A DNA stretch of 64,000 nt from a virus: IMG/VR virus record IMGVR_UViG_3300045136_000054, positions 1 to 64,000 of that record. One strand, given 5' to 3'. Of the stretch, positions 32,680-58,163 are shown one piece after another (the first letter of the stretch is position 1; every line of letters starts with the position of its first letter). The notes beneath the pieces are model-generated. The model saw nothing but the letters and a program-made list of their open reading frames with translations, was not told the DNA's origin and searched no databases. The position numbers were made by a program, and so were the translations under genes.

Positions 32680-33000
32680 AGAACACAAATTGGCGTTTGT
32701 GTAAATGTAGTAAAACAGCGTAAACCTTTTATAAGGGAAAGTTATTGCGGACGCGGGTTCGATTCCCGCCCACTCCACCAATAGATTAAAATTTTAATAT
32801 GGGGTGGTATATGGTTTCGACGTGGTAACGATTAGTACTAATAAAAGGCGCTCGGCAATGTCTAAAGCCGTTATTGAGAAGACAAAACTAAAATAAATGC
32901 AGCAAATGATGAATATTTTGGAGAGATGCGCCTAGCAGCGTAATCACCACGAGGTTTCGCAAGCTGTCCTTGTCATCAAATCAGCTTGCATTTTATTTTA
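32680..33000 (+). ncRNA. ssrA: Circularly permuted two-piece tmRNA
   Basis: The acceptor piece comes first: a T-arm GCGGGTTCGATTCCCGC then CACTCCACCA ending at 32780. After a 20-base AT-rich intervening segment the coding piece starts at 32801 with GGGGTGG, which pairs with CCACTCC, and TGGTTTCGACG, the conserved tmRNA D-loop analog. A CGGC/GCCG hairpin (pseudoknot 1 position) precedes the tag reading frame at 32899-32943, which encodes AANDEYFGEMRLAA then TAA. The 3' end has GCAAGCTG/CAGCTTGC followed by a T-rich run, a probable terminator. The boundaries of the mature pieces are estimates. Two-piece permuted tmRNAs are known from alphaproteobacteria and some cyanobacteria and betaproteobacteria; the gene would tag stalled nascent proteins for proteolysis. 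Confidence 0.9.
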
Positions 33001-33101
33001 ACTATCTTTATTAAAAAAATTAATAATATTAAATAAATATTTTATATACTTTTCTTTATTTTTGTGTTATAATGTCAATATTAACCCATATACCATAGGC
33101 G

Positions 33102-35199: not shown

Positions 35200-35276
35200 C
35201 TGCCCATAGCTCAGTCCGGAAGAGCAATAGCCTTCTAAGCTATTGGTCGGGGGTTCGAATCCCTCTGGGCAGGCCA
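35200..35276 (+). tRNA. tRNA-Arg (anticodon TCT)
   Basis: Acceptor CTGCCCA/TGGGCAG, D-arm with GG, anticodon stem ATAGC/GCTAT, loop CTTCTAA, T-loop TTCGAAT, encoded GCCA end. Reads AGA, a frequent Arg codon in AT-rich genomes. Canonical structure, stands apart from the three large tRNA operons. Confidence 0.93.
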
Positions 35277-39533: not shown

Positions 39534-40004
39534 ATGAAAATCAGAGCAGGATTTGTGAGCAATAGTTCATCATCAAGTTTTATTGTTATCAATTCTGATA
39601 AAATAGACAATTTTAATCCAAAAATTTTTAAATGGGATGGAGATCATATTGTCGTCGATGATGACTTTGGTGAAACAGAATTTGGTTGGCAAGAGAAAAT
39701 ATATAATGATGTTGGAAGTAAAGTAATATTTTCATATTTACAAGCATTGTATTCAGGAGAACTTAGTGATCAAAGAGTACAGATGTTAGAAAATGTACTT
39801 AAAGAATATACAGGTGCTAAAGGTATTATTTGGAAAATTAGTATTCATGATGATGAACAATCAGGCCTTATATATAGTTATATAGATCATCAATCAAATG
39901 CAACTGAAGATATGAATACAGAAATGTTTGATAGTAATGAACATCTAAAATCATTTTTATTTAATGATAAGTCATTTATACATAATGACAATGATAATCA
40001 TTAA
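39534..40004 (+). CDS. FVSNSSSSSF-motif protein A
   Basis: 156 residues starting MKIRAGFVSNSSSSSFIVIN. This N-terminal motif also opens the next gene and occurs in bacterial and phage proteins I recall, without known role. The remainder is acidic (CFNP-like metal sites absent). Strong ribosome-binding site AAGGAGAAA. Adjacent to the radical-SAM-like gene. Confidence 0.75.
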   Translation: MKIRAGFVSNSSSSSFIVINSDKIDNFNPKIFKWDGDHIVVDDDFGETEFGWQEKIYNDVGSKVIFSYLQALYSGELSDQRVQMLENVLKEYTGAKGIIWKISIHDDEQSGLIYSYIDHQSNATEDMNTEMFDSNEHLKSFLFNDKSFIHNDNDNH

Positions 40005-40054: not shown

Positions 40055-40612
40055 ATGAAGATTAGAATGGGTTTTGTTAGTAATAGTTCTAGTTCTAGTT
40101 TTATAGTTGCTGTTCCTAAAAACATGGAATTAAATGTAGAAAATGTTATTTTTATGTTGTGGCCAGATGTTAAGGATCATAATAATTTAAAATTTAATTA
40201 TTATTCTGAAAATAGCGTAAATGCTATTGATGTAGCTATAAGAGTTTTAGATGATTTAAAGTTGGCCGAAAAAGATAAAAATAACGAAAAAATGATTAAA
40301 GAATCTTTAAATGGATTGTATTATAAAAATAACATTCTTTTTAAAGATGTTGGCTCACCTCCAACAATTACAGATGATTTATACAAATTGCCAGTTGAGG
40401 AATTTAAAAATATTTTAGATAAATTTGAAAAGGATAGAGATGAATTTAATAGTAAAATTTATGATATATTTTTAAAACATAATTCAGATTGTGATATTTA
40501 CGTTTTAAATTATAGTGATAATAATGGTGAATTTGAAACTATTATGGAACACGGCGGAATATTTGATGATATGATAAAACGTGGGAATGCATTAATGATA
40601 AATAATCACTAA
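40055..40612 (+). CDS. FVSNSSSSSF-motif protein B
   Basis: 185 residues starting MKIRMGFVSNSSSSSFIVAV. Outside the first 18 residues it shows little similarity to protein A, so the N-terminal motif behaves like a shared tag or processing signal. Ribosome-binding site AGGAGAGATG. Confidence 0.75.
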   Translation: MKIRMGFVSNSSSSSFIVAVPKNMELNVENVIFMLWPDVKDHNNLKFNYYSENSVNAIDVAIRVLDDLKLAEKDKNNEKMIKESLNGLYYKNNILFKDVGSPPTITDDLYKLPVEEFKNILDKFEKDRDEFNSKIYDIFLKHNSDCDIYVLNYSDNNGEFETIMEHGGIFDDMIKRGNALMINNH

Positions 40613-40729: not shown

Positions 40730-41194
40730 TTGAAAACTAAAATATTATTTAAAGATTATGAAGAATTAAAAAATTATGTAGGTAAAGAAATAGGAAAAAG
40801 TGAACAATTTCTAATAACACAGAAATTTGTAAACGATTTTGCATTTGCTGTATATGATACTCAATGGATACATATTGATCCAGAAAGATGTGAAAAAGAA
40901 TCTCCATTTGGATCAAAACCAGTTATGCATGGATTATTAGGAATTGCTTTATTAACACATCTTTATAAAGAAACGCTTGAATTACCACCATTTTCTGCAC
41001 AAATAAATTGTGCAATTGAAGATGCTAAATTTTTAAAACCCGTATTTGTTGGTGATGTTGTTTATGGAACGTTTAAATTGCAAAAATTGGGAATAAGAAA
41101 AACTTTTTCACAATTAACATGGTTAAATAGTTTATACAATCAGAAAAATGAATTATGTTTATATGCTGTTATGTTAAATAGACGTTATCATTAA
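40730..41194 (+). CDS. MaoC-like (R)-specific hydratase/dehydratase
   Basis: 154 residues from TTG 40730 (AATGAGGTAGC upstream). The hydratase-2 signature is clear: [20 protein letters not shown] (D-x4-H catalytic pair) and [17 protein letters not shown]. MaoC-type enzymes hydrate/dehydrate enoyl-CoA or enoyl-ACP; with FabI and FabF encoded in this window it may serve as the dehydration step of an elongation cycle. Its stop is 2 bp before the CCA-adding enzyme. Confidence 0.9.
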
Positions 41195-43483: not shown

Positions 43484-43512
43484 TTTACTTTTTAGAAAAA
43501 TCTATATATAAT
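43484..43512 (+). promoter_or_regulatory. Promoter of tRNA operon 1 (TTTACT - 17 - TATAAT)
   Basis: TTTACT 43484-43489, TATAAT 43507-43512, 17 bp spacing. Transcription would start near 43519, 31 bp before the leader ORF. Confidence 0.85.
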
Positions 43513-43549
43513 ACCAATATAGTAAATTTTTAATAGGAGCAAGCAATAA

Positions 43550-43639
43550 ATGTTTAACATTACTTCAATCTCAATCATGACTATTCGGGTTACCGGAACA
43601 GGTCGTGTTGATCGCGATGAACGCGGGGAGGATATTTAA
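43550..43639 (+). CDS. Leader peptide 1 of the Gly/Glu/Asp/Arg tRNA operon
   Basis: 29 codons with ribosome-binding site ATAGGAGCAAG, placed between a sigma70-like promoter and an intrinsic terminator that precedes the tRNA cluster. Codons 13-28 encode R V T G T G R V D R D E R G E D: 12 of 16 are Arg, Gly, Asp or Glu, exactly the four amino acids of the downstream tRNAs. It uses CGG, CGT, CGC, GGA, GGG, GGT, GAA, GAG and GAT, several rare in this AT-rich genome. Role as an attenuator leader is inferred. Confidence 0.75.
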   Translation: MFNITSISIMTIRVTGTGRVDRDERGEDI

Positions 43640-43643
43640 TGTG

Positions 43644-43686
43644 AGCTCTAAGTTAAGATTTTTTATCTAAACTTAGGGCTTTTTTA
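43644..43686 (+). terminator. Intrinsic terminator / attenuator of tRNA operon 1
   Basis: AGCTCTAAGTTAAGAT pairs with ATCTAAACTTAGGGCT (one G-U and one mismatch), loop of T, followed by TTTTTT. It starts 4 bp after the leader stop and lies 25 bp before tRNA-Gly, so readthrough is needed for cluster expression. I found no strong alternative pairing partner inside leader 1. Confidence 0.85.
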
Positions 43687-43711
43687 AAAGAAGCCCTAAA
43701 TTGTTTTATAT

Positions 43712-43786
43712 GCGTGGTAAGTGTCATTGGTTACACGTCTGGCTTCCAACCAGAAATAAGGAGTTCGATTCTCCTACCCCGCACCA
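43712..43786 (+). tRNA. tRNA-Gly (anticodon TCC)
   Basis: Acceptor GCGTGGT/ACCCCGC with a U4-C69 mismatch, D-arm GTGT..ACAC with GG, anticodon stem TCTGG/CCAGA, loop CTTCCAA, T-loop TTCGATT, CCA encoded. Reads GGA/GGG. First tRNA of operon 1. Confidence 0.9.
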
Positions 43787-43819
43787 AATGTGTTAAGTTC
43801 TTTTACAATTTAGAGAAAT

Positions 43820-43890
43820 ATCCCATGAGGCAGCTAGTGACGCCATTGGGCCTCAAAAGGGACCGGGGGCAGAACTGGTACGGGATACCA
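43820..43890 (+). other. Degenerate tRNA-like sequence in operon 1
   Basis: 71 bases ending GGGATACCA with acceptor ATCCCAT/ACGGGAT (one mismatch), short D-stem GGC/GCC with an AG-type D-loop, and T-stem ACCGG/CTGGT whose loop is GGGCAGAA, similar to the altered T-loops of other tRNAs here. I could not draw a normal anticodon stem, so it is either a decayed tRNA or an unusual RNA. Confidence 0.4.
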
Positions 43891-43898
43891 AAAATATG

Positions 43899-43972
43899 GA
43901 CCGTGAGCAGCTGGCGCAGGCGACCAGACCTTCAATCTGGGAAGAGGAGTTCGAATCTCCTACGGTCTACCA
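43899..43972 (+). tRNA. tRNA-Glu (anticodon TTC)
   Basis: Acceptor GACCGTG/TACGGTC, anticodon stem CCAGA/TCTGG, loop CCTTCAA, T-arm AGGAG TTCGAAT CTCCT, encoded CCA. The D-arm is irregular, as in many Glu tRNAs. Confidence 0.88.
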
Positions 43973-43981
43973 ATATGTTAT

Positions 43982-44058
43982 GCGTGTATAGTGTTTAATG
44001 GTTAGCACGAAACGTTGCCAACGTTTAAGTCCCAGTTCGAATCTGGGTACCCGCACCA
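43982..44058 (+). tRNA. tRNA-Gly (anticodon GCC)
   Basis: Acceptor GCGTGTA/TACCCGC with the same U4-C69 mismatch as tRNA-Gly(TCC), anticodon stem AAACG/CGTTT, loop TTGCCAA, T-loop TTCGAAT, CCA encoded. Confidence 0.9.
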
Positions 44059-44070
44059 AATTTTTTATTA

Positions 44071-44145
44071 GGTCTATTCGTATATGGGTTATTATGGTGG
44101 CTTGTCACGCCATTGAACCGGGTTCGAGTCCCGGATAGACCGCCA
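44071..44145 (+). tRNA. tRNA-Asp (anticodon GTC)
   Basis: Acceptor GGTCTAT/ATAGACC, anticodon stem GTGGC/GCCAT, loop TTGTCAC, T-arm CCGGG TTCGAGT CCCGG, G73 and CCA encoded. Canonical. Confidence 0.92.
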
Positions 44146-44150
44146 TCTGA

Positions 44151-44226
44151 ACCACCATAGTGTTAATAATGAGCATAATAGACTGTCAATCTATAAGGAT
44201 GGGAGCATGACCCTTTGGTGGTGCCA
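44151..44226 (+). tRNA. tRNA-Asp-like (anticodon GTC) with altered T-loop
   Basis: Acceptor ACCACCA/TGGTGGT (perfect), anticodon stem ATAGA/TCTAT, loop CTGTCAA, GCCA end. The T-loop is AGCATGA in place of TTCRANN, flanked by TGGG/CCC. C56 and a purine 57 are kept while 54/58 are A/T, the reverse of the usual T/A. The D-loop lacks GG. Second Asp isoacceptor next to a normal one. Confidence 0.8.
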
Positions 44227-44227
44227 T

Positions 44228-44307
44228 CTCGATGTATACCCTCTGGCTACGAACCAGTTGAAAGGTTAATTGGAAACATGCAGGTTCGAATCCTGTCATC
44301 GAGGCCA
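44228..44307 (+). tRNA. tRNA-Arg (anticodon ACG), no conventional D-arm
   Basis: Acceptor CTCGATG/CATCGAG, T-arm GCAGG TTCGAAT CCTGT, GCCA end. Anticodon hairpin CTGG CTACGAA CCAG. Where a D-arm should be there is only TATACCCT, and 22 bases with GG lie between anticodon arm and T-arm. ACC before and GGT after the anticodon hairpin can pair. The next tRNA has the same plan with compensating changes. Confidence 0.75.
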
Positions 44308-44310
44308 ATT

Positions 44311-44389
44311 CCGGAAGTATCTCCTCAGTCTTCGAAACTGTAGAAAGAGTAATGGAATCATGTAGGTTCAAATCCTATCTTCCGGACCA
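44311..44389 (+). tRNA. tRNA-Arg (anticodon TCG), no conventional D-arm
   Basis: Acceptor CCGGAAG/CTTCCGG, A73 and CCA, T-arm GTAGG TTCAAAT CCTAT. Anticodon hairpin CAGT CTTCGAA ACTG. Same unusual layout as tRNA-Arg(ACG): TATCTCCT in place of the D-arm, CTC/GAG flanking the hairpin, and a GG-containing segment after it. Last tRNA of operon 1. Confidence 0.75.
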
Positions 44390-46575: not shown

Positions 46576-46603
46576 TTTACTTTTTTGAAAAACATGATAT
46601 TAT
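46576..46603 (+). promoter_or_regulatory. Sigma70-like promoter (TTTACT - 16 - TATTAT, TG-extended)
   Basis: TTTACTTTTTT at 46576 and TGATATTAT with -10 at 46598-46603. It is a near-duplicate of the promoter 80 bp downstream, about 45 bp of which is repeated; both read toward leader 2. Confidence 0.75.
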
Positions 46604-46657: not shown

Positions 46658-46686
46658 TTTACTTTTTTGAAAAAACGTGATATTAT
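46658..46686 (+). promoter_or_regulatory. Promoter of tRNA operon 2 (TTTACT - 17 - TATTAT, TG-extended)
   Basis: TTTACT 46658-46663, TGA then TATTAT 46681-46686, 17 bp spacing. Start near 46693 gives a ~40-base leader before the leader ORF. Confidence 0.82.
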
Positions 46687-46734: not shown

Positions 46735-46830
46735 ATGAAACAAGCAACTTATTGGTTACCATCATTATGTACAATGCTTCTAGTGAGCTTTAGTTCATAT
46801 GCGCCTATGCGACTAAAGGAGCTCGGTTAA
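46735..46830 (+). CDS. Leader peptide 2 of the 16-tRNA operon
   Basis: 31 codons, ribosome-binding site AAAAGGAATTT. Residues 4-25 contain only Ala, Thr, Tyr, Trp, Leu, Pro, Ser, Cys, Met, Val and Phe (for example ATYWLPSLCTM), all eleven present, and these are exactly the eleven amino acids served by the downstream tRNAs (Met, Trp, Ala, Phe, Val, Tyr, Pro, Ser, Thr, Cys, Leu). The last codons GAG CTC GGT and the stop (GGAGCTCGGTT, 46818-46828) mimic the 3' arm of the following terminator. This is the design of a translation-sensing attenuator; the mechanism is inferred. Confidence 0.8.
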   Translation: MKQATYWLPSLCTMLLVSFSSYAPMRLKELG

Positions 46831-46895
46831 AAGAGATAAATATCTCATGAAATTTAAAAACCGGGCTCCATAAAAAGGAGCCCGGTTTGATTTTA
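46818..46895 (+). promoter_or_regulatory. Attenuator of tRNA operon 2: antiterminator and terminator
   Basis: Terminator: AACCGGGCTCC (46859-46869) with GGAGCCCGGTT (46877-46887), 11 bp, then TTTGATTTT. Antiterminator: GGAGCTCGGTT at the end of the leader ORF (46818-46828) can pair with the same AACCGGGCTCC through 11 bp with one G-U. The two are mutually exclusive. A ribosome at the leader stop would mask the first strand and favour termination; one stalled upstream would leave it free. Confidence 0.85.
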
Positions 46896-46909: not shown

Positions 46910-47026
46910 ATGAAGAAAAGTATAGTATCAAAAGATTTAAGAACACCAAAATATAAAATGCGTGTTTTTAAATCTAAAAAAGGAAAAGGTTCTTTTAAAA
47001 GAACTAAAAGAGTAGTTATAGATTAA
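46910..47026 (+). CDS. arfA: ArfA-like ribosome rescue peptide
   Basis: 38 residues, basic. DLRTPKYKMRVFKSKKGKG followed by SFKR aligns with the functional part of E. coli ArfA (LHDPLFRQRVEKNKKGKG followed by SYMR). ArfA enters the empty mRNA channel of stalled ribosomes and recruits RF2 as backup to tmRNA. Ribosome-binding site TTAAGGAGATA. The stop codon is directly followed by the first base of tRNA-Met, so 5' processing of that tRNA leaves an mRNA ending at its stop. Lies between the attenuator and the tRNAs. Confidence 0.75.
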   Translation: MKKSIVSKDLRTPKYKMRVFKSKKGKGSFKRTKRVVID

Positions 47027-47101
47027 CGTCACTTGGCAGAGAAGTTATGCACTTCGCTCATAACGAAGACTAGATAGGGGCAGTACCTATAGTGACGACC
47101 A
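47027..47101 (+). tRNA. tRNA-Met (anticodon CAT) with altered elbow
   Basis: Acceptor CGTCACT/AGTGACG, anticodon stem CTTCG/CGAAG, loop CTCATAA, T-stem ATAGG/CCTAT, A73 and CCA. T-loop is GGCAGTA (54G, 55G, 56C, 57A, 58G) and the D-loop has AG where GG is usual. All stems are perfect, so it is not simply decayed. Starts on the base after the ArfA stop codon. Confidence 0.88.
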
Positions 47102-47107
47102 ATAAGT

Positions 47108-47235: not shown

Positions 47236-47309
47236 GGGTTGCTAGTTCAGTGGTAGAATGGATGTCTCCAAAACATCAGATCAGGGTTCGATTCCTTGGC
47301 AGCCCGCCA
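47236..47309 (+). tRNA. tRNA-Trp (anticodon CCA)
   Basis: Acceptor GGGTTGC/GCAGCCC, D-loop AGTGGTA with GG, anticodon stem GATGT/ACATC, loop CTCCAAA, T-loop TTCGATT, G73 and CCA encoded. Canonical. Confidence 0.94.
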
Positions 47310-47319
47310 AAAACATAAT

Positions 47320-47399
47320 GGGCTTCGGGAATGCTTGGGGTGTTCGCCGCACTTGCAATGCGGATATTCAGCAGGGTTCAAATCCCTGGAGGTCCACCA
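47320..47399 (+). tRNA. tRNA-Ala (anticodon TGC)
   Basis: Acceptor GGGCTTC/GAGGTCC (two G-U), anticodon stem CCGCA/TGCGG, loop CTTGCAA, variable region 8 nt, T-arm CAGGG TTCAAAT CCCTG, A73 and CCA. The bacterial G3-U70 Ala identity pair is present. Confidence 0.92.
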
Positions 47400-47520
47400 A
47401 TTATTAAATAATCTCGCCTAGTTGACGAACTAGGGAATGATTACACTAATCTGTGGCCACTGGTAGACAATAATAATGTAATAATAGTGCTGTGCAATTG
47501 ATACGAGGTAGTTGAAATAT

Positions 47521-47599
47521 GCAAGGTGAGCTAGTCTGGTGATTTCAGCGACTGCCTGAAGAGCAGTAAAACCAGGTTCGATTCCTGGACCTTGCACCA
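47521..47599 (+). tRNA. tRNA-Phe (anticodon GAA)
   Basis: Acceptor GCAAGGT/ACCTTGC, anticodon stem ACTGC/GCAGT, loop CTGAAGA, T-loop TTCGATT, A73, CCA. The preceding ~120 bases (47400-47520) hold no gene, but CCTAGTT/AACTAGG and CTCG/CGAG can form hairpins. Confidence 0.92.
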
Positions 47600-47750
47600 G
47601 AGTATTAGGGAACAAATTGGTGTGTCCGCCTGCTTGATCGACCAAAGCGTTAACGTAATCTCAATTTACAAGTATGGACAACTTGTATAATCAAATTGAG
47701 AGGACATATCTATGAAGTCCTTAAACCCATGTGTCGATTAATACTCTTTT
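47599..47750 (+). ncRNA. Candidate structured RNA between tRNA-Phe and tRNA-Val
   Basis: AGAGTATTA (47599-47607) pairs with TAATACTCT (47739-47747), followed by TTT. Inside lie TTGGT/ACCAA, a TCTCAATTT/AAATTGAGA stem capped by ACAAGT/ACTTGT with a 7-nt loop, and AGGAC/GTCCT. Such a closed, branched structure without an ORF suggests a small RNA of ~150 nt cut out by tRNA processing on both sides. No known family recognised. Confidence 0.5.
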
Positions 47751-47754
47751 AAAT

Positions 47755-47829
47755 GCCTCGTTAGCTCAATAGTAGAGCATTCGCCTTACAAGCGAAGGGT
47801 AGAAGGAGCGTAACCTTCACGAGGCACCA
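47755..47829 (+). tRNA. tRNA-Val (anticodon TAC) with altered elbow
   Basis: Perfect stems: GCCTCGT/ACGAGGC, GCTC/GAGC, TTCGC/GCGAA, GAAGG/CCTTC. Anticodon loop CTTACAA. T-loop AGCGTAA (A54, G55, C56, G57, T58) and D-loop AATAGTA (A18, G19) replace the usual TTCRANN and GG. A73, CCA. Confidence 0.9.
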
Positions 47830-47840
47830 AATGATTATAT

Positions 47841-47924
47841 GGGGTATTAGAGTGTTAAGGAGACACTGGAGTCTGTAAAACTTATGCTTCGGCCAGCTAG
47901 GATCGTTACCTAGATACCCCACCA
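47841..47924 (+). tRNA. tRNA-Tyr (anticodon GTA), reversed 54-58 pair
   Basis: Acceptor GGGGTAT/ATACCCC, anticodon loop CTGTAAA, longer variable arm with GCTTCGGC, T-stem CTAGG/CCTAG, loop ATCGTTA (A54, T55, C56, G57, T58). D-loop keeps GG, matching T55. A73, CCA. Confidence 0.88.
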
Positions 47925-47944
47925 AAATATTATATGTAAAAAAT

Positions 47945-48019
47945 AACCAAGTAGCTCAGAGGAAGAGCGTTTGCATGACATGCAAAAGGTCGAGATTTCG
48001 AAATTCTTCTTGGTTACCA
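47945..48019 (+). tRNA. tRNA-Val (anticodon GAC)
   Basis: Acceptor AACCAAG/CTTGGTT, D-arm GCTC AGAGGAA GAGC, anticodon stem TTTGC/GCAAA, loop ATGACAT, T-loop TTCGAAA with a weak stem (GAGAT/TTCTT), A73? then CCA. Reads GTC/GTT. T-stem pairing is the weakest of the set. Confidence 0.85.
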
Positions 48020-48025
48020 GTTAAT

Positions 48026-48113
48026 GCAGCAGCGGGGGAGTTTAGAGAGCCTCACCGGACTGTAAATTCGGCGCCTTAGTGCTGAGTAGGTGCAAATCCT
48101 ACCTGCTGCACCA
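48026..48113 (+). tRNA. second tRNA-Tyr (anticodon GTA), G55/A18 type
   Basis: Acceptor GCAGCAG/CTGCTGC, anticodon stem CCGGA/TTCGG, loop CTGTAAA, long variable arm, T-stem GTAGG/CCTAC, loop TGCAAAT (T54, G55, C56, A57, A58). D-loop has no GG but contains AGAG. So it keeps the T54-A58 pair and changes only 18/55, complementary to the other Tyr tRNA. Confidence 0.88.
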
Positions 48114-48183
48114 AAATATGTTATAATTCTATAAATACTTATAAATATTAACATATTAATTGTTCTAGTAATGGAGATATAGA

Positions 48184-48861
48184 ATGAAAGTATCTGAATT
48201 ATTTGAAGCTTCAAAACCAGGTAGAGCATGGAATAATAAATTATCAAAAATTGATAAATTAATGGCATGGATGTATGATAAAAATATTTTATCAAAAACA
48301 GATAAAGAAAGAAAAGATAGAGTTTTTTATCAGTACTACAAATATTATAATGATGGAGTGATACCTGGATATTTAAAAAATAAAGGATTTAGCAAATATT
48401 CAAATAAAAACGAATTAGAAACAGAATTAGAAAAACATCTTGAAGATTTTATTAAAGAAATGCTTTCTAAATATCTTCCAAAAGTAGATAGAAAAGATTT
48501 TAGAATTGACAATACTATTGATATATTAAATCGTATTTTAGAATCAGCTGAAAATCATGATCCTCATGGATTAATAACTTATTGGTATAAGAAATATAAA
48601 AAATACGATGAAGGATTTTTAAATCAAATAGATGAAATACGAAAAAAATATGACATTGTTAAATCAAAATTAGATTCTGAAAGTCCAGATACATCAAATA
48701 TGGTTTTATCATATCGTGTAGATAAAATGAAAAAAGATAAAACAATAACACCAGAATCTAAAAAACTTGTTAATGATTTATATATGTCAATGGATTCTTT
48801 AGGTGTCTATGTTAAGAATCTAATTAGATCATTAGAAGATATTAAAAATAATTTAGTTTAA
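48184..48861 (+). CDS. Candidate packaged protein, N-terminus MKVSELFEAS
   Basis: 225 residues inside tRNA operon 2. Two TATAAATA octamers at 48130 and 48140 and a ribosome-binding site TGGAGATA give it late expression independent of the tRNAs. MKVSELFEA/S fits the targeting class; the body is very rich in Lys, helical, with a conserved-looking NHDPHGLITYWYKKY segment. No known domain. Confidence 0.7.
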   Translation: MKVSELFEASKPGRAWNNKLSKIDKLMAWMYDKNILSKTDKERKDRVFYQYYKYYNDGVIPGYLKNKGFSKYSNKNELETELEKHLEDFIKEMLSKYLPKVDRKDFRIDNTIDILNRILESAENHDPHGLITYWYKKYKKYDEGFLNQIDEIRKKYDIVKSKLDSESPDTSNMVLSYRVDKMKKDKTITPESKKLVNDLYMSMDSLGVYVKNLIRSLEDIKNNLV

Positions 48862-48883
48862 AATTAAAATTTTTAAATTTTTT

Positions 48884-48961
48884 CGGTGTGTAGGCTAGCT
48901 CGGTTAAGTCGCCTGCTTTGGGAGCAGGAAACCGCAGGTTCGAATCCTGCCACACCGACCA
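48884..48961 (+). tRNA. tRNA-Pro (anticodon TGG)
   Basis: Acceptor CGGTGTG/CACACCG, anticodon stem CCTGC/GCAGG, loop TTTGGGA, D-loop with GG, T-loop TTCGAAT, A73, CCA. C1-G72 start typical of bacterial Pro tRNA. Confidence 0.93.
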
Positions 48962-48988
48962 TTAAAAAAGATATTATATTAAAATTTT

Positions 48989-49076
48989 GGAAGTTTGCCA
49001 GAGAGGCCTATTGGGACTGTTTGCTAAACAGATCGACCGAAAGGTCACAGAGGTTCGAATCCTCTAACTTCCGCCA
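48989..49076 (+). tRNA. tRNA-Ser (anticodon GCT)
   Basis: Acceptor GGAAGTT/AACTTCC, class II variable arm (CGACCGAAAGGTC), anticodon loop TTGCTAA, T-loop TTCGAAT, G73, CCA. Confidence 0.93.
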
Positions 49077-49086
49077 TTATGTAAAA

Positions 49087-49195
49087 GAAGTTGCCTAGCC
49101 GAAATGCTAGGTGGAGTGTGCAAGCACGTAGTAAATCTTGCCTTTGGCGCCGGACCATTGCTCCTACTCGGATGAGTATCCGGCAAGAACAAAAT
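49087..49195 (+). other. Structured spacer between two Ser tRNAs
   Basis: CCTAGC/GCTAGG hairpin, GTGC/GCAC, then CTTGCC pairing with GGCAAG around CCGGA/TCCGG and TACTC GGAT GAGTA. About 110 nt, GC-richer than coding DNA, no ORF. Candidate small RNA released by tRNA processing; no family recognised. Confidence 0.4.
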
Positions 49196-49291
49196 GGAGA
49201 TGTGACTGAGTCTGGCTTAAGGTACTTGTCTTGAAAACAATGGGTCCTCCAAAAAAAGGACACGTAGGTTCGAATCCTACCATCTCCGCCA
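49196..49291 (+). tRNA. tRNA-Ser (anticodon TGA)
   Basis: Acceptor GGAGATG/CATCTCC, anticodon loop CTTGAAA, class II variable arm (GGGTCCTCC..AGGAC), T-loop TTCGAAT, G73, CCA. Confidence 0.92.
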
Positions 49292-49354
49292 AAAAAATTT
49301 AACATTATATTCTGGGCCATAAGAAGATAGAGTAAGAATTAATAATAAAAATAT

Positions 49355-49442
49355 GGAAGGTTCCTCTAGCGGCTATGAGAACTGCCTCGAAAGCAGTAGA
49401 CCAGCAATGGTCTCGTGGGTTCGAGTCCCACACCTTCCGCCA
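49355..49442 (+). tRNA. tRNA-Ser (anticodon CGA)
   Basis: Acceptor GGAAGGT/ACCTTCC, anticodon stem ACTGC/GCAGT, loop CTCGAAA, variable arm GACCAGCAATGGTC, T-loop TTCGAGT, G73, CCA. Nearly identical to tRNA-Ser(GGA) at 50430. Confidence 0.93.
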
Positions 49443-49444
49443 TT

Positions 49445-49520
49445 GCTCCTGTAGTATATTGGTGTAATACACATCTTTGGTAAAGATGAAAAGAAAGTTC
49501 GATTCTTTCCTGGAGCACCA
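49445..49520 (+). tRNA. tRNA-Thr (anticodon GGT)
   Basis: Acceptor GCTCCTG/CTGGAGC with one T-T mismatch, D-arm GTAT..ATAC with GG, anticodon stem CATCT/AGATG, loop TTGGTAA, T-loop TTCGATT, A73, CCA. Confidence 0.9.
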
Positions 49521-49526
49521 AAATTG

Positions 49527-49600
49527 ACGAGGTGGTATAGTGGTTGTGCCTGGGTCTGCAAAACCCAAGAGGTGGGTTCGATTCCCGCCCTCGTTTCCAA
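49527..49600 (+). tRNA. tRNA-Cys (anticodon GCA)
   Basis: Acceptor GACGAGG/CCTCGTT (G1-U72), anticodon stem TGGGT/ACCCA, loop CTGCAAA, T-loop TTCGATT, U73 as in Cys tRNAs, CCA encoded. Confidence 0.92.
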
Positions 49601-49610
49601 ACAAAAATTG

Positions 49611-49692
49611 CCCTCATGGCTTAGTTAAATTGGCACAGACGACTGGCTCAAACCCAGAGCTTTTACAGGTTCGAATCCTGTTGAGGGCACCA
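49611..49692 (+). tRNA. tRNA-Leu (anticodon CAA)
   Basis: Acceptor GCCCTCA/TGAGGGC, anticodon stem ACTGG/CCAGA, loop CTCAAAC, T-loop TTCGAAT, A73, CCA. Variable arm shorter than usual for Leu. Confidence 0.9.
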
Positions 49693-49697
49693 TTAAT

Positions 49698-49782
49698 GCG
49701 TAGGTGGTGGAACTGGAATACACTCTGGTCTTAGAAGCCAGCGCCGAAAGGATTGAGGGTTCGACTCCCTCCCTACGCACCA
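49698..49782 (+). tRNA. tRNA-Leu (anticodon TAG)
   Basis: Acceptor GCGTAGG/CCTACGC, anticodon stem CTGGT/GCCAG, loop CTTAGAA, class II variable arm, T-loop TTCGACT, A73, CCA. Last tRNA of operon 2. Confidence 0.93.
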
Positions 49783-49882
49783 AAATATTTCCTAAATATA
49801 TGTAACTTTTCTCTCCTAGGAGTATTAATTATATAGATACAGATAATTCCGTTTGTATCTAATTAATATAAGGAGATCTAAT

Positions 49883-50107
49883 ATGAAAAATTCACTTCTA
49901 GTTTCAGCTTTAGTCATCACATTTGGTATTTCTTCAGTTTTAGCAGCTGATGCACCTAAGACTGCTCCTGCTGTTCCTGCTGCTTCTACAGCTGTCGCAC
50001 CTACACCAGCAAAAGCTGAGCCAGTAAAGAAAGCTGTTAAAAAATCTGCTAGTAAAAAAACTAACACTAAAAGTAAAGCAAAAGTCGAAGCTAAGCCAGC
50101 TAAATAA
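49883..50107 (+). CDS. Exported Ala/Pro/Lys-rich small protein
   Basis: 74 residues from ATG 49883 (ATAAGGAGATC upstream). Signal peptide MKNSLLVSALVITFGISSVLA, then a low-complexity AAP/TAP stretch (DAPKTAPAVPAASTAVAP) and a Lys-rich tail (PVKKAVKKSASKKTNTKSK). A periplasmic, positively charged, unstructured peptide. Codon use is GC-richer than neighbours. Function unknown. Confidence 0.75.
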   Translation: MKNSLLVSALVITFGISSVLAADAPKTAPAVPAASTAVAPTPAKAEPVKKAVKKSASKKTNTKSKAKVEAKPAK

Positions 50108-50300
50108 TAGAATTATTTTTTTATTAACTGGTACAAACAATCAAGAATTAAATGATATAGATATAGATTTTGATGTTTTGTTACAATCTAAATCTATACG
50201 ATTAGTTAAACATAGAGAAGAATTAGATGATATTATTAAGATAAGATTGTTTTTAGCTAGAATAAATGCGTTAAAACTATACGATAAAAAGTATGGTTGA
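50108..50300 (+). other. Possible remnant reading frame without start codon
   Basis: An open frame ending at TGA 50300 reads LLTGTNNQELNDIDIDFDVL..., but I find no ATG, GTG or TTG with a ribosome-binding site at its beginning. Protein-like composition suggests a truncated gene. Confidence 0.3.
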
Positions 50301-50303
50301 GAT

Positions 50304-50337
50304 AAAAAGCGAACTTGTAGTTCGCTTTTTATTTTTT
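50304..50337 (+). terminator. Intrinsic terminator
   Basis: AAAAAGCGAAC / GTTCGCTTTTT with TTGTA loop, followed by ATTTTTT. Ends the 49.9-50.3 kb transcript; it also precedes tRNA-Ser(GGA). Confidence 0.88.
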
Positions 50338-50429
50338 AAATTTAGTATATAAATAATGCTATAGAATGATATATAATATTAATACTGGGTTGGTTTGAGA
50401 GGTTAGACATCTCCTTTATTTTGTAAAAT

Positions 50430-50514
50430 GGAAGGTTCCTCTAGCGGCTATGAGAACTGCCTGGAAAGCAGTGGACCAGCAATGGTCTCGTGGGTTCGAG
50501 TCCCACACCTTCCG
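50430..50514 (+). tRNA. tRNA-Ser (anticodon GGA), CCA not encoded
   Basis: Same sequence as tRNA-Ser(CGA) at 49355 except the anticodon loop (CTGGAAA) and one or two other bases. G73 is followed by CCCCC, not CCA, so maturation needs CCA addition. A recent duplicate whose anticodon moved from TCG to TCC/TCT reading. Confidence 0.92.
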
Positions 50515-50560
50515 CCCCCGAAAGTAAAATTATGTGAATTATTTAGGAGAAGGAATTAAA

Positions 50561-52308: not shown

Positions 52309-52337
52309 TTTACTTTTTGTTTGATATTAGATATAAT
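52309..52337 (+). promoter_or_regulatory. Promoter of ncRNA / tRNA operon 3 (TTTACT - 17 - TATAAT)
   Basis: TTTACT 52309-52314, TATAAT 52332-52337. Start near 52344, about 13 bp before the structured RNA below. Confidence 0.85.
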
Positions 52338-52356
52338 ATCTACATATTTTAAATAA

Positions 52357-52478
52357 AAACTCTGTCGCTAAGGGCCGACAAAAAATTGAGTATCTCCCAG
52401 TACTCAATTCAACAAATCGGCCGCTGTGGGAGCAGAAATCGGAGCGACTATAACTTTACAGCTTCGGGGGCAGAGTTT
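52357..52478 (+). ncRNA. Candidate structured small RNA upstream of tRNA operon 3
   Basis: Nested helices: AAACTCTG/CAGAGTTT (outer, 8 bp), GTCGCT/AGCGAC, GGCCGA/TCGGCC, and a TTGAGTA/TACTCAA hairpin. A small CTG/CAG hairpin sits in the 3' half and GGGGGCAG near the end. It follows a strong promoter and contains no ORF, so it is probably an RNA gene of ~120 nt. Not a tRNA, tmRNA, RNase P or T-box as far as I can see. Confidence 0.65.
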
Positions 52479-52597
52479 AAAAATACAGTTCATACTCAAT
52501 TGCAGTTTGACTTATGGTCGTGATGATAATGAATGACTAAAGGATAGGTGTGATAAAGACCTTGTTGTGGGAAAATCAATATTATAATCACTTTTAA

Positions 52598-52678: not shown

Positions 52679-52783
52679 ATGGCTTTTATGATTAATACAA
52701 ATAGAAAACAGACAGTGCAGATTAAAACTGCACAGGTCACTATTCGCACTATTGATCATAAACAAAATAGGGAATGGCCCTAA
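52679..52783 (+). CDS. Leader peptide 3 of the Asn/Lys/Ile/Gln/His tRNA operon
   Basis: 34 codons, ribosome-binding site ATGGAGTAAT. Contains Ile x4, Asn x3, Lys x3, Gln x4 and His x1, the five amino acids of the downstream tRNAs (15 of 34), along with Thr x5 and others; enrichment is real but weaker than in leaders 1 and 2. The last codons and stop, GCCCTAAAT (52777-52785), can pair with ATTTAGGGT of the terminator, the same arrangement as in leader 2. Confidence 0.7.
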   Translation: MAFMINTNRKQTVQIKTAQVTIRTIDHKQNREWP

Positions 52784-52855
52784 ATAATATTATTCTCTTA
52801 AACACAAAAAATATATTTAGGGTCAAAACGAAAGTTTAGACCCTAAGTTGTTTTA
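52777..52855 (+). promoter_or_regulatory. Attenuator of tRNA operon 3: antiterminator and terminator
   Basis: Terminator TTTAGGGTC (52816-52824) with GACCCTAAG (52839-52847), then TTGTTTT. Alternative: GCCCTAAAT at the leader end pairs with ATTTAGGGT (52815-52823) through 9 bp including one G-U. Mutually exclusive helices as expected for attenuation. Confidence 0.8.
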
Positions 52856-52969: not shown

Positions 52970-53059
52970 TGTCCAGTGACCGGAGTTGGTAACGGCCCCG
53001 CCTGTTAAGCGGAGAGAGTAGAGATACTTACGCAGGTTCGATCCCTGCCTGGACAGCCA
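52970..53059 (+). tRNA. tRNA-Asn (anticodon GTT) with long variable arm
   Basis: Acceptor TGTCCAG/CTGGACA, D-arm CCG..CGG with GG, anticodon stem CCGC/GCGG, loop CTGTTAA, T-arm GCAGG TTCGATC CCTGC, G73, CCA. The variable region is about 19 nt with a GTA GAGA TAC hairpin, unusual for Asn. About 110 bases before it (52860-52969) show CCAGATT/AATCTGG and CTGCA/TGCAG pairing but no gene. Confidence 0.88.
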
Positions 53060-53092
53060 ATCATAATGTTACAATTGAAAATGGAAAGCATT

Positions 53093-53167
53093 CGGCCCAT
53101 GATGAAATTGGTATCATAATTGACTTTTAATCAATCTTTCTCAGTTCGAATCTGGGTGGGCCGACCA
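53093..53167 (+). tRNA. tRNA-Lys (anticodon TTT)
   Basis: Acceptor CGGCCCA/TGGGCCG, D-arm ATGA..TCAT with GG, anticodon stem ATTGA/TCAAT, loop CTTTTAA, T-loop TTCGAAT, A73, CCA. Confidence 0.92.
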
Positions 53168-53225
53168 AAAATACAAAAAATGATGGAGGACAGGGGCAGT
53201 ACTCTGCAGCCCCATCAAAATTTAT

Positions 53226-53299
53226 TGTTCCTTAGCTCAAAAGTAGAGCGCACGACTGATAATCGTGAGACGAAGGAGCGTTACCTTCAGGAACAACCA
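53226..53299 (+). tRNA. tRNA-Ile (anticodon GAT) with altered elbow
   Basis: Perfect stems TGTTCCT/AGGAACA, GCTC/GAGC, CACGA/TCGTG, GAAGG/CCTTC; loop CTGATAA. T-loop AGCGTTA (A54, G55, C56, G57, T58) and D-loop AAAAGTA (A18, G19). Same altered set as tRNA-Val(TAC). A73, CCA. A GC-rich hairpin (GGGGCAG/CTGC-GCCCC) lies just upstream at 53190-53212. Confidence 0.9.
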
Positions 53300-53368
53300 A
53301 AGACACTAACAACAATTAAAAATTTTAAACTTTTATCATCTTTGAAAAGAAAAATGTGTTTTGACAAT

Positions 53369-53443
53369 TGGGGTCTGGTGTAATTGGCAGCACCTCACTC
53401 TTTGACAGTGATAGTCTCAGTTCGAATCTGGGGGCCCTAGCCA
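53369..53443 (+). tRNA. tRNA-Gln (anticodon TTG)
   Basis: Acceptor TGGGGTC/GGCCCTA (U1-A72 as in bacterial Gln tRNA), D-arm GTGT..GCAC with GG, anticodon stem TCACT/AGTGA, loop CTTTGAC, T-loop TTCGAAT, G73, CCA. Confidence 0.92.
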
Positions 53444-53478
53444 AGTTATTAAAATCTGATATAAAAAGTAAATTTTTA

Positions 53479-53500
53479 ACTCTAGAGAAAACTAGAGTTT
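53479..53500 (+). terminator. Hairpin between tRNA-Gln and tRNA-His
   Basis: AACTCTAG / CTAGAGTT around AGAAAA followed by TCTAT. Could be a weak terminator or processing signal. Confidence 0.5.
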
Positions 53501-53504
53501 CTAT

Positions 53505-53594
53505 GGTGTATGAAGAGCAAAGTGGTCGCGCCCTGTGTCTGTGAAACACAGTTCCTAAAGGATATAGCCGGTTCGAGTCCGGCCATACACCCCA
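53505..53594 (+). tRNA. tRNA-His (anticodon GTG)
   Basis: G-1 facing C73 (the His identity pair), acceptor GTGTATG/CATACAC, anticodon loop CTGTGAA, T-arm GCCGG TTCGAGT CCGGC, CCA. Long variable region. Last tRNA of operon 3. The ~250 bases after it hold no supported gene (only a 13-codon frame at 53656). Confidence 0.9.
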
Positions 53595-55202: not shown

Positions 55203-56575
55203 AGATCTTATTTGTATAAATAAATATATGGTTAGGAAGTTCTTAGGCGGAACTCCAACCTCAGCTACAGGTGAACTGGGCTGTCCCATACAATTTTATT
55301 TATACAGAGCAAAATGATTCTTATGGCATACAAGTATCGGTTATATCCAACCAAAGAACAAGAGCAGTTCTTGTTGCAGAACTTTGGTGCAGTTCGTTTT
55401 GTCTGGAATCAACTGGTAGCTAACTTCAATTCTTGGTCTAAAGATGGACCAAACCAAACGGTCACAGAAAAGACCTTGAAAGATGATCCCAGATATCCTT
55501 GGTTGAACGAAGCCATCAGCTATGCACTTCAGCAAAAGCGAATGGACTTTGATGAAACCAAAAAGCAATTCTTCAACAAGAAACGAGCAGTTAAACTTGG
55601 GCGAATGAAGTTCAAACGTAAAGGTAAATCACGAGATTCATTCAAAATTCCCGCGGCATCATTGGGTGGAATGAAGGCGTTTGATTTAAATGCTGGAACA
55701 ATCAAGCTCACAAAAATGACACCAATGAAAATGGTTGTTGATCGAAAGTTCCGTGGAGCGCCCAAATCAGTAACAGTTTCGAAAAACAAAGCAAACCAGT
55801 ATTTTGTAAGCGTTCTGGTGGAAGAAGCAAAACCAGAACCTTTACCAAATACCTATCGTGCTGTAGGTATTGATCTTGGGTTGAAAGATTTGGCTGTTCT
55901 CAGTGACGGTCACAAACTAGCAAATCCAAGGTGGTTTAGAGAAAGCCAATCTAAACTAAAAAGAGCACAACAGCATTTGAGTCGGAAGCAAAAAGGTAGC
56001 AATCGCCGCAAGCAGCAACAGTTGAAGGTCAATCGCATATATTTGAAAATTTCTAATCAGCGAGAACACCTACAACATGAGTTTTCTAAATGGCTTGTCA
56101 AGAATTATGACTACATCTATCTTGAGGATCTAGCTATCCAAGGTATGATGCAGTCTAAGAACAAGACTCGAAACAAGAACATTGCGGATGCGAGTTGGTC
56201 TTCATTGGTATCTAAAATTGAGTACAAAGCAAATTGGTATGGCAAGGAATTTGCCAAGGTTGATCGCTACTTTGCTTCTAGTCAAATTTGTTCTACTTGT
56301 GGTCATCATGATGGTAAAAAATCGCTTGATGCCCGTCGTTGGACATGTCCCGTCTGTGGTGTAGTGCATGATCGAGACTTGAATGCTGCTAAGAACATCG
56401 AACAAGAAGCCTCTAGAGATCTTGTCAATTGGATTAAAAGAGGTGCAAGAGAATTAAACTCGGCCGAATCAGTCGAGAACAGACACAGAGAGGTCATAAG
56501 TCCAGTGGTCGGTACGACATTGGCTGCTTCGTTGAAGTGTCCAGTGGTTTTATAGAATTTTGTGAAATCACATGA
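55203..56575 (+). mobile_element. Lone-TnpB element (IS605/IS607-type, no TnpA)
   Basis: GC content rises to about 42% from just before tnpB to shortly after it, unlike flanking AT-rich DNA. The left side has an imperfect hairpin GGTTAGGAAGTTC/GGAACTCCAACC at 55229-55260; the right side repeats GTCCAGTGG twice (56500 and 56538) around the tnpB end, where omega RNA would end. No tyrosine transposase is present, so movement needs one in trans. Boundaries are estimates. Confidence 0.7.
55314..56555 (+). CDS. tnpB: TnpB RNA-guided endonuclease
   Basis: 413 residues (ATG 55323 is an alternative start). AYKYRLYPTKEQEQFLLQNF start, RuvC Asp in AVGIDLGLKDLAVLSDG, Glu in YDYIYLEDLAIQGM, zinc ribbon CSTCG...WTCPVCG and final RuvC Asp in HDRDLNAAKNI. 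All catalytic residues are intact and length is normal for IS605 TnpB. It would use an omega RNA from its 3' end to cut at donor sites. Confidence 0.93.
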   Translation: MILMAYKYRLYPTKEQEQFLLQNFGAVRFVWNQLVANFNSWSKDGPNQTVTEKTLKDDPRYPWLNEAISYALQQKRMDFDETKKQFFNKKRAVKLGRMKFKRKGKSRDSFKIPAASLGGMKAFDLNAGTIKLTKMTPMKMVVDRKFRGAPKSVTVSKNKANQYFVSVLVEEAKPEPLPNTYRAVGIDLGLKDLAVLSDGHKLANPRWFRESQSKLKRAQQHLSRKQKGSNRRKQQQLKVNRIYLKISNQREHLQHEFSKWLVKNYDYIYLEDLAIQGMMQSKNKTRNKNIADASWSSLVSKIEYKANWYGKEFAKVDRYFASSQICSTCGHHDGKKSLDARRWTCPVCGVVHDRDLNAAKNIEQEASRDLVNWIKRGARELNSAESVENRHREVISPVVGTTLAASLKCPVVL

Positions 56576-56583
56576 TTATGAAT

Positions 56584-56811
56584 AATAGGAGAAAAGATGG
56601 ATTTCAATACACTTAAACAAAAACTTCAAAAAAAATATTCAACAAAATTTCAAGATCAATTTTCAGAAGAAATATGGCAAACAACATACAAAGATTAAAT
56701 AGGAGAAAAGATGGATTTCAATACACTTAAACAAAAACTTCAAAAAAAATATTCAACAAAATTTCAAGATCAATTTTCAGAAGAAATATGGCAAACAACA
56801 TACAAAGATTA
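56584..56811 (+). repeat. 114-bp direct tandem duplication at the start of nrdJ
   Basis: 56584-56697 is repeated exactly as 56698-56811, including ribosome-binding site (AATAGGAGAAAAG), start codon and first ~33 codons of nrdJ. The upstream copy ends in TAA at 56696, giving a 33-residue decoy peptide. It lies 10-30 bp downstream of the TnpB element, suggesting damage or repair at that site. Confidence 0.92.
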
Positions 56812-58048
56812 TAATGATAAAACAATAGATGATACTCTTTTTAGAGTCGCAAAAACAATAGCATCAGCAGAAGAAACTGAAGAAAAGCGTATCGAGTGGA
56901 CCGAAAAATTTTATGATATGCTTAGTGAATTTAAAGTTACTGCTGGTGGTAGAATTTATGCAAATGCTGGGACAGAATGGAAAGGTACAACATTTATTAA
57001 TTGCTTTGTTGCACCTAGAGCAAATAATGATATAGACTCATTAAGTAATATTATTAAAACATTAAATGATCAAGCACAAACACTCAAAAGTGAGGGTGGA
57101 TGGGGAGAAAATTTTAGTTGGATAAGACCGCGTGGTGCTTTTATTTATGGGATTGGCGTTGAAACGCCAGGTGCTGTAAAATATATGGAATTATTTGATA
57201 AATCATCTGATATTATTACTTCTGGTTCAGGTAAAAAATCAACACATGTAAAAGCGAAAGGTAAAATTAGAAAGGGCGCGATGATGGCAGTATTAGATGT
57301 TTGGCACCCTGATATTATAGAATTTATTACAGCAAAACAATCATCAGGAAGATTGACAAAATTTAATATGTCAGTAAATTGTTCAGATGAATTTATGTCA
57401 AAGGTTATAAAAGCATTAGAATTACAAAAACAAATTGATTCATTATCAGATGATGATGAAAATAAACAAATTTTAATTAAAGAAAAAGAAGAAATTGATA
57501 AATGGAATTTACGTTTCCCAGACACAAGTCATCCAAAATATAAAAAAGAATGGAAAGGTGACATTAAGCAATGGGAATCAGCTGGGTATCCAACAATAGT
57601 GTATCAAACAGTATCAGCAACTTGGCTATGGAATTTAATTATGGAATCAACATATAATCGCGCAGAGCCAGGTGTTTTATTTTTAGATCGTGCAAATTAT
57701 TTTAATCCATTAAATTATGCTGAAACAATTTATTCGACAAATCCATGTTTAACTGGTGATACTTTAGTCACGACAGATAAGGGTGAAATATCATTTTTTG
57801 AGTTGGCCAAAAGGTTTAAATCTGGTGAAAGCTTCAAAGTATTAACAATGAATATTGACACACAAAATACAGAATTTGAAGATATAACTTTTGTCGACAA
57901 AACACGTAATAATGCTAATGTTATCGAATTAGAATTAGAAGATTCTACAGTCATTAAATTAACACCAGATCATAAAGTCTATACTGAAAATCGTGGGTAT
58001 GTTAATGCATCTGACTTAACAACAGACGATATTTTAATAGGTATTTAA
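56711..58048 (+). CDS. nrdJ: Class II ribonucleotide reductase, N-terminal part fused to N-intein
   Basis: 445 residues. Residues 1-345 are reductase: GGRIYANAGTEWKG, FINCFVAPRANNDI (first redox Cys), GWGENFSWIRPRG, ending YSTNP. From 57746 a 100-residue N-intein begins CLTGDTLVTTDKGEISF, with the B-block TPDHKVYTENRGYV, and ends DDILIGI with a stop. The break falls directly before the catalytic Cys of NPCGEQ, so activity requires protein trans-splicing with the next gene. Duplicate start upstream (repeat entry). Confidence 0.93.
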   Translation: MDFNTLKQKLQKKYSTKFQDQFSEEIWQTTYKDYNDKTIDDTLFRVAKTIASAEETEEKRIEWTEKFYDMLSEFKVTAGGRIYANAGTEWKGTTFINCFVAPRANNDIDSLSNIIKTLNDQAQTLKSEGGWGENFSWIRPRGAFIYGIGVETPGAVKYMELFDKSSDIITSGSGKKSTHVKAKGKIRKGAMMAVLDVWHPDIIEFITAKQSSGRLTKFNMSVNCSDEFMSKVIKALELQKQIDSLSDDDENKQILIKEKEEIDKWNLRFPDTSHPKYKKEWKGDIKQWESAGYPTIVYQTVSATWLWNLIMESTYNRAEPGVLFLDRANYFNPLNYAETIYSTNPCLTGDTLVTTDKGEISFFELAKRFKSGESFKVLTMNIDTQNTEFEDITFVDKTRNNANVIELELEDSTVIKLTPDHKVYTENRGYVNASDLTTDDILIGI

Positions 58049-58163
58049 AATGTCACATAGGTTTATAACTTCCATAGATGTTAAAAAAAGAACAAGATAT
58101 ACCAATTATTATAATTGACAACATTAATGATTATTGTGAAAGTTACAAAAAGGAAAAAGCTAT

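Follow-up and report, generated by a model that had tools for sequence, protein, structure and literature searches.

The window analysed here, that is, the whole stretch of 64,000 nucleotides of viral DNA (positions 1 to 64,000 of IMG/VR record IMGVR_UViG_3300045136_000054, which is 92,872 bp long), contains three units, A, B and C, in each of which a leader ORF matches the tRNA operon that follows it. It is very probable that these units act as ribosome-mediated attenuators of transcription, each governing one tRNA operon of the phage, and the phage probably makes these tRNAs only when ribosomes are short of them. The initial annotation had proposed for unit A an attenuator that samples the tRNAs of its own operon, and this proposal is now strongly supported by the two sister units, by about 30 units elsewhere, and by tests of composition and geometry. 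The elements by which an attenuator is recognized were found as follows: a promoter and then a short ORF, supplied with a ribosome-binding site, ahead of the operon, enrichment of the leader in codons cognate to the operon product, an intrinsic terminator between the leader and the first structural gene (in unit A, either of two hairpins), an antiterminator mutually exclusive with the terminator, and, by computation, control codons so placed that a stall frees the antiterminator arm and completion of the ORF masks it.

The features of unit A are as follows.
43484..43512, plus strand: promoter of operon A, TTTACT-17-TATAAT, a member of the tRNA-operon promoter motif
43535..43539, plus strand: Shine-Dalgarno sequence AGGAG of leader A, read from the sequence
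43550..43639, plus strand: leader peptide A, with Gly/Arg/Asp/Glu control codons at 13-28
43643..43681, plus strand: hairpin h1, putative antiterminator, -18.3 kcal/mol, followed by T6 and able in principle to terminate by itself
43644..43654, plus strand: antiterminator arm A, AGCTCTAAGTT, pairing over 11 bp with 43670-43680, with one G-U
43673..43699, plus strand: hairpin h2, putative terminator, -13.8 kcal/mol, with a tail (ATTGTTTTAT) resembling that in operon C
43712..44389, plus strand: tRNA operon A, with Gly(TCC), a tRNA-like element, Glu(TTC), Gly(GCC), Asp(GTC), Asp(GTC)-like, Arg(ACG)-like and Arg(TCG)

The promoter that had been noted before leader A was found again here. Its motif (GTTTACTTTTT..TATAAT) occurs in 5 copies in the window, vs 0.13 expected, at about 34190, 43483, 46657, 52308 and 60260. 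Four of these five copies precede tRNA operons (A, B, C and Thr/Asn), and the sharing of the motif suggests a tRNA-specific promoter class.

Leader A is an ORF of 29 codons from ATG to TAA, MFNITSISIMTIRVTGTGRVDRDERGEDI. As the initial annotation had stated, exactly 12 of its residues 13-28 are Gly, Arg, Asp or Glu. Against the phage's own usage, in which these four amino acids make up 22.3% of 10,762 codons, the binomial P for 12 in a stretch of 16 residues is 1.1e-5, and this composition was unique among the window's 492 ORFs that begin with ATG and span 15-60 codons. The use of GC-rich codons that the phage otherwise avoids also held when codon frequencies were compared: CGG, CGC, GGG and GAG account for 5 of 28 codons in leader A vs 1.1% of phage codons (P = 1.5e-5). 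All four Arg codons of the leader belong to the CGN box, which is read by the Arg tRNAs of operon A (P 0.026), and the AGA-reading Arg(TCT) tRNA lies outside this operon, at 35200. The further claim that the leader samples the anticodons of the operon holds for the amino acids and for the Arg CGN box. Because the codon-box test of Leu, Ser and Arg over the leaders gave mixed results, for example AGT codons before TCN-reading tRNAs, we claim a match at the codon level only for CGN in leader A. A region identical to that of leader A is present in a 184-kb contig.

The tRNA content given earlier for operon A (Gly twice, Glu, Asp twice and Arg twice) agrees with our calls. ARAGORN called Gly(TCC), Glu(TTC), Gly(GCC) and Asp(GTC), and Rfam added tRNAs at 44151-44223 (36.7 bits) and 44311-44386 (33.1 bits); the remaining one, at 44227-44304, has a sub-threshold tRNA-class match only. 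Judging from the anticodon loops, these three read as Asp (44151-44223), Arg(TCG) (44311-44386) and Arg(ACG) (44227-44304), and all are somewhat degenerate. Between tRNAs of the window there are also tRNA-like or compact structured elements (43820-43893, 47033-47103, 52350-52480 and 53174-53219), which share a GGGGCAG motif, and some of which end in or near CCA; a search of Rfam gave no match to them. The tRNA region of T5 is also described as holding a "tRNA-like stable RNA with unknown functions".

Hairpins h1 and h2 are mutually exclusive, and both lie 3' of the leader A stop. Arm A is located directly 3' of this stop; its partner is AACTTAGGGCT at 43670-43680, and their pairing competes with the hairpin TTAGGGCTTTTTTAAAAGAAGCCCTAA (43673-43699). 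The terminator that had been placed just after the stop corresponds to a real hairpin (43643-43681), but by analogy with units B and C, h1 is more likely the antiterminator than the terminator. The remark that an antiterminator partner is not obvious was mistaken, since arm A has such a partner.

The sign of regulation in unit A alone could nevertheless be reversed, because T6 follows h1, whose U-tract scores better (4.1-5.0) than that of h2 (3.2). That is, h1 would be the terminator, a ribosome finishing the leader would mask its 5' arm, and the tRNAs would be made when they are plentiful. The high stability of h1, together with the result that no stable pairing partner was found for it upstream in the leader, would fit such a reversal. 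We consider it unlikely, however, because the released state forms h2, of which the tail (TTGTTTTAT) and the place are like those of terminator C, because B, C and the relatives are all ordered as antiterminator arm, terminator 5' arm and 3' arm, and because A would be left as the sole unit with positive feedback. We therefore favour h2 as the terminator of A, on the basis of the arm order and the tail shared with C. When unit A was folded at equilibrium, h2 formed if a ribosome at the stop masked the arm, and h1 won otherwise.

The two sister units have the following features.
46658..46686, plus strand: promoter of operon B, carrying the motif, with a near-copy at 46576-46603
46735..46830, plus strand: leader peptide B, an ORF, MKQATYWLPSLCTMLLVSFSSYAPMRLKELG
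46818..46828, plus strand: antiterminator arm B, GGAGCTCGGTT, 11 bp with one G-U
46858..46888, plus strand: terminator B, -22.5 kcal/mol
46910..47026, plus strand: ArfA-like ribosome-rescue factor, the first gene of operon B (Pfam PF03889, E 3.5e-6, above cut-off)
47236..50517, plus strand: putative tRNA operon B, with Trp, Ala, Phe, Val, Tyr, Val, Tyr, Pro, Ser, Ser, Ser, Thr, Cys, (Leu-like), Leu and Ser
52309..52337, plus strand: promoter of operon C, carrying the promoter motif
52679..52783, plus strand: leader peptide C, an ORF, MAFMINTNRKQTVQIKTAQVTIRTIDHKQNREWP
52775..52786, plus strand: antiterminator arm C, TGGCCCTAAATA, 12 bp with one G-U
52815..52848, plus strand: terminator C, -16.5 kcal/mol
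52970..53594, plus strand: tRNA operon C, with Asn, Lys, Ile, Gln and His

The residues of leader B match the Trp, Ala, Phe, Val, Tyr, Pro, Ser, Thr, Cys and Leu tRNAs behind it, where coding genes interrupt the putative operon, and those of leader C match the Asn, Lys, Ile, Gln and His tRNAs of operon C. In all three units an arm at or just past the leader end can form 11-12 bp, one of them G-U, with the 5' arm of a hairpin, and none of 200 dinucleotide shuffles of each leader gave a pairing as good. The ArfA-like factor consists of 38 amino acids and lies directly behind attenuator B, so that ribosomes which stall might induce a factor for their own rescue. A tmRNA (32688-33034) with the tag AANDEYFGEMRLAA is likewise encoded by the phage.

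The nascent RNA was folded as far as the loop of the terminator, so that the 3' arm was absent, with a ribosome placed on each codon in turn. In most leaders the terminator 5' arm was sequestered at stalls on control codons and freed near the end of the ORF. The sequestration fell from about 0.7 to 0.1 at the stop in A and from 0.8-0.9 to 0 in B, and in C from about 0.7 to 0.3-0.5 only. In equilibrium folding with ribosome masking, the terminator won in most leaders whatever the position of the ribosome, and the switch must therefore be kinetic, as in known attenuators.

The ORFs, the hairpins with their exclusive pairings, the match in composition and the location of the matching codons are computational results; from them we infer the translation of the leaders, the stalling, the direction of regulation and its biological trigger, and the proposed course of events would be as follows. 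RNA polymerase would start at the tRNA promoter, and a ribosome would follow on the leader ORF. When all the sampled tRNAs are charged and available, the ribosome would reach the end of the ORF and mask the antiterminator arm, the terminator 5' arm would pair with its own 3' arm, and transcription would stop before the tRNAs. When a sampled tRNA is scarce, whether through consumption, lack of charging or cleavage by an anticodon nuclease of the host, the ribosome would stall a few codons upstream, the free antiterminator arm would capture the terminator 5' arm, and the tRNA operon would be transcribed. In operon A the antiterminator would be formed by 43643-43681 and the terminator by 43673-43699, and in operon B antitermination would also turn on the ribosome-rescue gene arfA.

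In order to evaluate the match between leaders and operons, we used a scan blind to amino acids, which takes a hairpin with a T-run, an ATG ORF of 12-60 codons ending nearby and a tRNA at most 900 nt downstream. The scan was run on LR756502 and LR756501, on relatives found via the ribonucleotide reductase, on further megaphages and on Lak-A1. Over all 50 leader/operon pairs the summed match z was 107.9, vs a mean of 0.3 and an sd of 9.1 in permuted pairings; the true match lies 12 sd above, and the maximum among 100,000 permutations was 47.1, none reaching 107.9. In an earlier set of 32 pairs the match was 66.2 vs an sd of 7.4, and the eight positive phages alone, a subset picked after the results were seen, also gave 12 sd. 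The complementarity of the leader end with the terminator 5' arm exceeded that of dinucleotide shuffles (median P 0.012, combined P about 1e-25) in a subset for which a minimum pairing score of 7 was required, which is a mild selection.

These values bear on chance as an explanation, by which a GC-rich small ORF would happen to stand before GC-reading tRNAs and the ordinary terminator of an upstream transcript. A single leader is indeed modestly supported, since in the whole of leader A 12 of 28 residues match, with P 0.012 when no stretch is chosen. However, such units number three in the window and about 30 elsewhere, none came from the seven unrelated tRNA-rich phages, and coincidence is already refuted by the permutation of the blind scan and by the tests of arm pairing and geometry; we regard it as extremely improbable.

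The position of the matching residues was also characteristic. They are most frequent 4-13 codons ahead of the antiterminator arm and drop to background beyond it. The share of matches was 0.55-0.66 at 6-12 codons upstream of the arm, with the peak of 0.64-0.66 at 6-8 codons, 0.40 at 4 and 0.23 at 2, and inside or after the arm it was 0.06-0.19, compared with 0.165 in permuted clusters. With amino-acid sets defined by hand, 239 of 415 residues matched before the last permissive codon and 35 of 140 after it (Fisher P 1.6e-11). This geometry is what the footprint of a ribosome demands, and it would be produced neither by chance nor by a peptide with a function. Some distant leaders have the arm 27-43 nt before the ORF end, and the details of masking may thus differ in them. 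If the short ORFs instead encoded peptides with a function, or decoys for binding or consuming tRNAs, the match would reflect the role of the peptide, and composition alone would fit such a role. But the matches break off abruptly where the antiterminator arm begins, every leader runs up to an intrinsic terminator with a pairable 5' arm, and the leaders have no evident shared sequence beyond an MK(T/N)-type start, so that we consider a peptide role very unlikely and retain the attenuator.

The phage records that the ribonucleotide reductase matches most closely are LR756502 (642-kb) and LR756501 (735-kb), both uncultured, which have 50 and 66 tRNAs, respectively, clustered by amino acid and with leaders before many clusters. 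In the window, a ribonucleotide reductase large subunit (56711-59882) is split into two ORFs (56711-58048 and 58164-59882), and a TnpB/IS605 OrfB-like gene (55314-56555) lies just before it. The window also carries phage genes of fatty-acid type, a beta-ketoacyl synthase (61496-62692) and a MaoC-like dehydratase (40730-41194), and two adjacent paralogues (39534-40004 and 40055-40612) that both start with the motif MKIR.GFVSNSSSSSFIV.

The same architecture was found in seven further large phages, namely metagenomic phages of 642, 735, 636 and 462 kb, Lak-A1 and two IMG/VR contigs, with leaders altered to suit each operon. By our count, about 32 leaders in eight phages, those of the window included, match their own operon. 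The following are leaders from these phages.
MTTSFQQQQQQQINRTD, before tRNA-Gln x4
MKTTIKNTSSRSRSSKSGEVRLYS, before Arg Ser Ser Ser Arg
MNNILHINLLNSLCLLGIKLIG, before Leu x5
MKTIAMIIRMRIIRPKMLG, before Arg Ile Met
MKAMILSLCLSLSLSLQKLG.., before Leu2 Ser Cys Ser2 Leu2
MLFNSNISVKFTPAPAVAFRRGTGTGTGTCVPAGCGFEGMNG, before Arg/Pro/Ala/Thr/Val/Gly
MKTVNTNIAIVEIAVIGGAEEGVMGVYC.., before Glu/Ala/Ile/Val/Gly
MRTILIIKKKKR.., before Lys x3
MKNLTNIFWHFHFKATRRLG.., before His/Phe
MKAISVHIIHIWEHLLEEV.., before His/Glu/Val/Trp
MKTLNMTYGMHPVCGMVHMFPCGGGRPM.., of Lak-A1, before His/Pro/Arg/Gly/Cys/Met

Apart from the start mentioned above, no common sequence is evident among the leaders. The tRNA operons of megaphages are grouped by amino acid (Leu; Ser/Arg; Gln) in LR756502 (L013-L016), LR756501 (L019-L024) and LR756504 (L158-L165), and this grouping is consistent with amino-acid regulons. 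In the seven unrelated control phages (Vibrio phage 2.275.O, XaC1, GAP32, Sinorhizobium phage Phosso with 59 tRNAs, Mildred21 with 46, SYP and T5), the scan gave three weak matches, which had neither matching composition nor strong pairing. No convincing leaders were found at the tRNA clusters of the relatives G006, G007, G009, G013 and G022 or of the megaphages LR756511 and LR756508, and those of G010 gave one ambiguous candidate. Queries of viral contigs with the CCA enzyme and the radical-SAM protein returned only an identical strain (L005/L011) and relatives without tRNA clusters. The conservation in related genomes that the initial annotation had asked for holds in part: the design recurs in at least seven other large phages, but the trait is patchy, because several relatives and two other megaphages have tRNA clusters without leaders.

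In E. coli, trpL, hisL, thrL, ilvL, leuL and pheA are leader-peptide transcription attenuators of amino-acid operons. Like the phage units, these attenuators have a translated short leader rich in codons for the operon product, an antiterminator set against an intrinsic terminator, and control codons just upstream of the antiterminator. Unlike them, the phage units have tRNA genes and not biosynthetic enzymes as their output, one leader samples up to ten amino acids, and the units are located in phages, where about 32 leaders have only the type of start in common. The E. coli pheM-pheST system is an attenuator of an aminoacyl-tRNA synthetase operon; it shares with the phage units leader-peptide attenuation of an operon of the translation apparatus, but it is cellular, responds to a single amino acid and controls a synthetase instead of tRNA genes. 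T-box riboswitches also sense tRNA charging and antiterminate tRNA-related genes, but they bind the uncharged tRNA directly and have no leader peptide. A T-box was rejected for this part of the window, where Rfam gave no T-box match at the gathering score or at E<=1.

Phage-encoded tRNAs have been reported to act against defences that cleave tRNAs (van den Berg 2023, PMC10264068), and work on Retron Ec78, as cited in PMC10264068, concerns tRNA supply as a counter-defence. Such a use of tRNA supply is a likely reason for the phage units to sense depletion. The paper covers tRNA sequence and resistance and does not mention attenuation or leaders. By analogy with that system, the benefit of the attenuators is likely the replacement of tRNAs destroyed by host defences. 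Our search of the literature, in which many subscription papers were beyond reach, found no paper on attenuation of phage tRNA operons, and neither the huge-phage paper (PMC7162821) nor a 2026 phage-tRNA preprint mentions it. As far as the papers searched show, the parts and the logic are known from trp, his and ilv, and their use on phage tRNA operons is previously undescribed.

It has long been asked why phages carry so many tRNAs, and codon compensation and the replacement of destroyed host tRNAs have been considered. We tentatively propose, as an idea that may be right but that we hold somewhat on the doubtful side, that some huge phages keep amino-acid-specific tRNA regulons behind multi-amino-acid attenuators, which would act as a codon-resolved shortage sensor and release no tRNAs but those in short supply (along with the rescue factor in the case of operon B), chiefly against anticodon nucleases or other tRNA-depleting defences. 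If stalling at cognate codons switches the operons on, the tRNAs would be an on-demand repair kit, and the leaders would reveal which shortages the phages evolved to meet. The leaders offer testable predictions and a way of annotating tRNA operons in metagenomic phages, and they would constitute a natural set of multi-amino-acid sensors of tRNA shortage.
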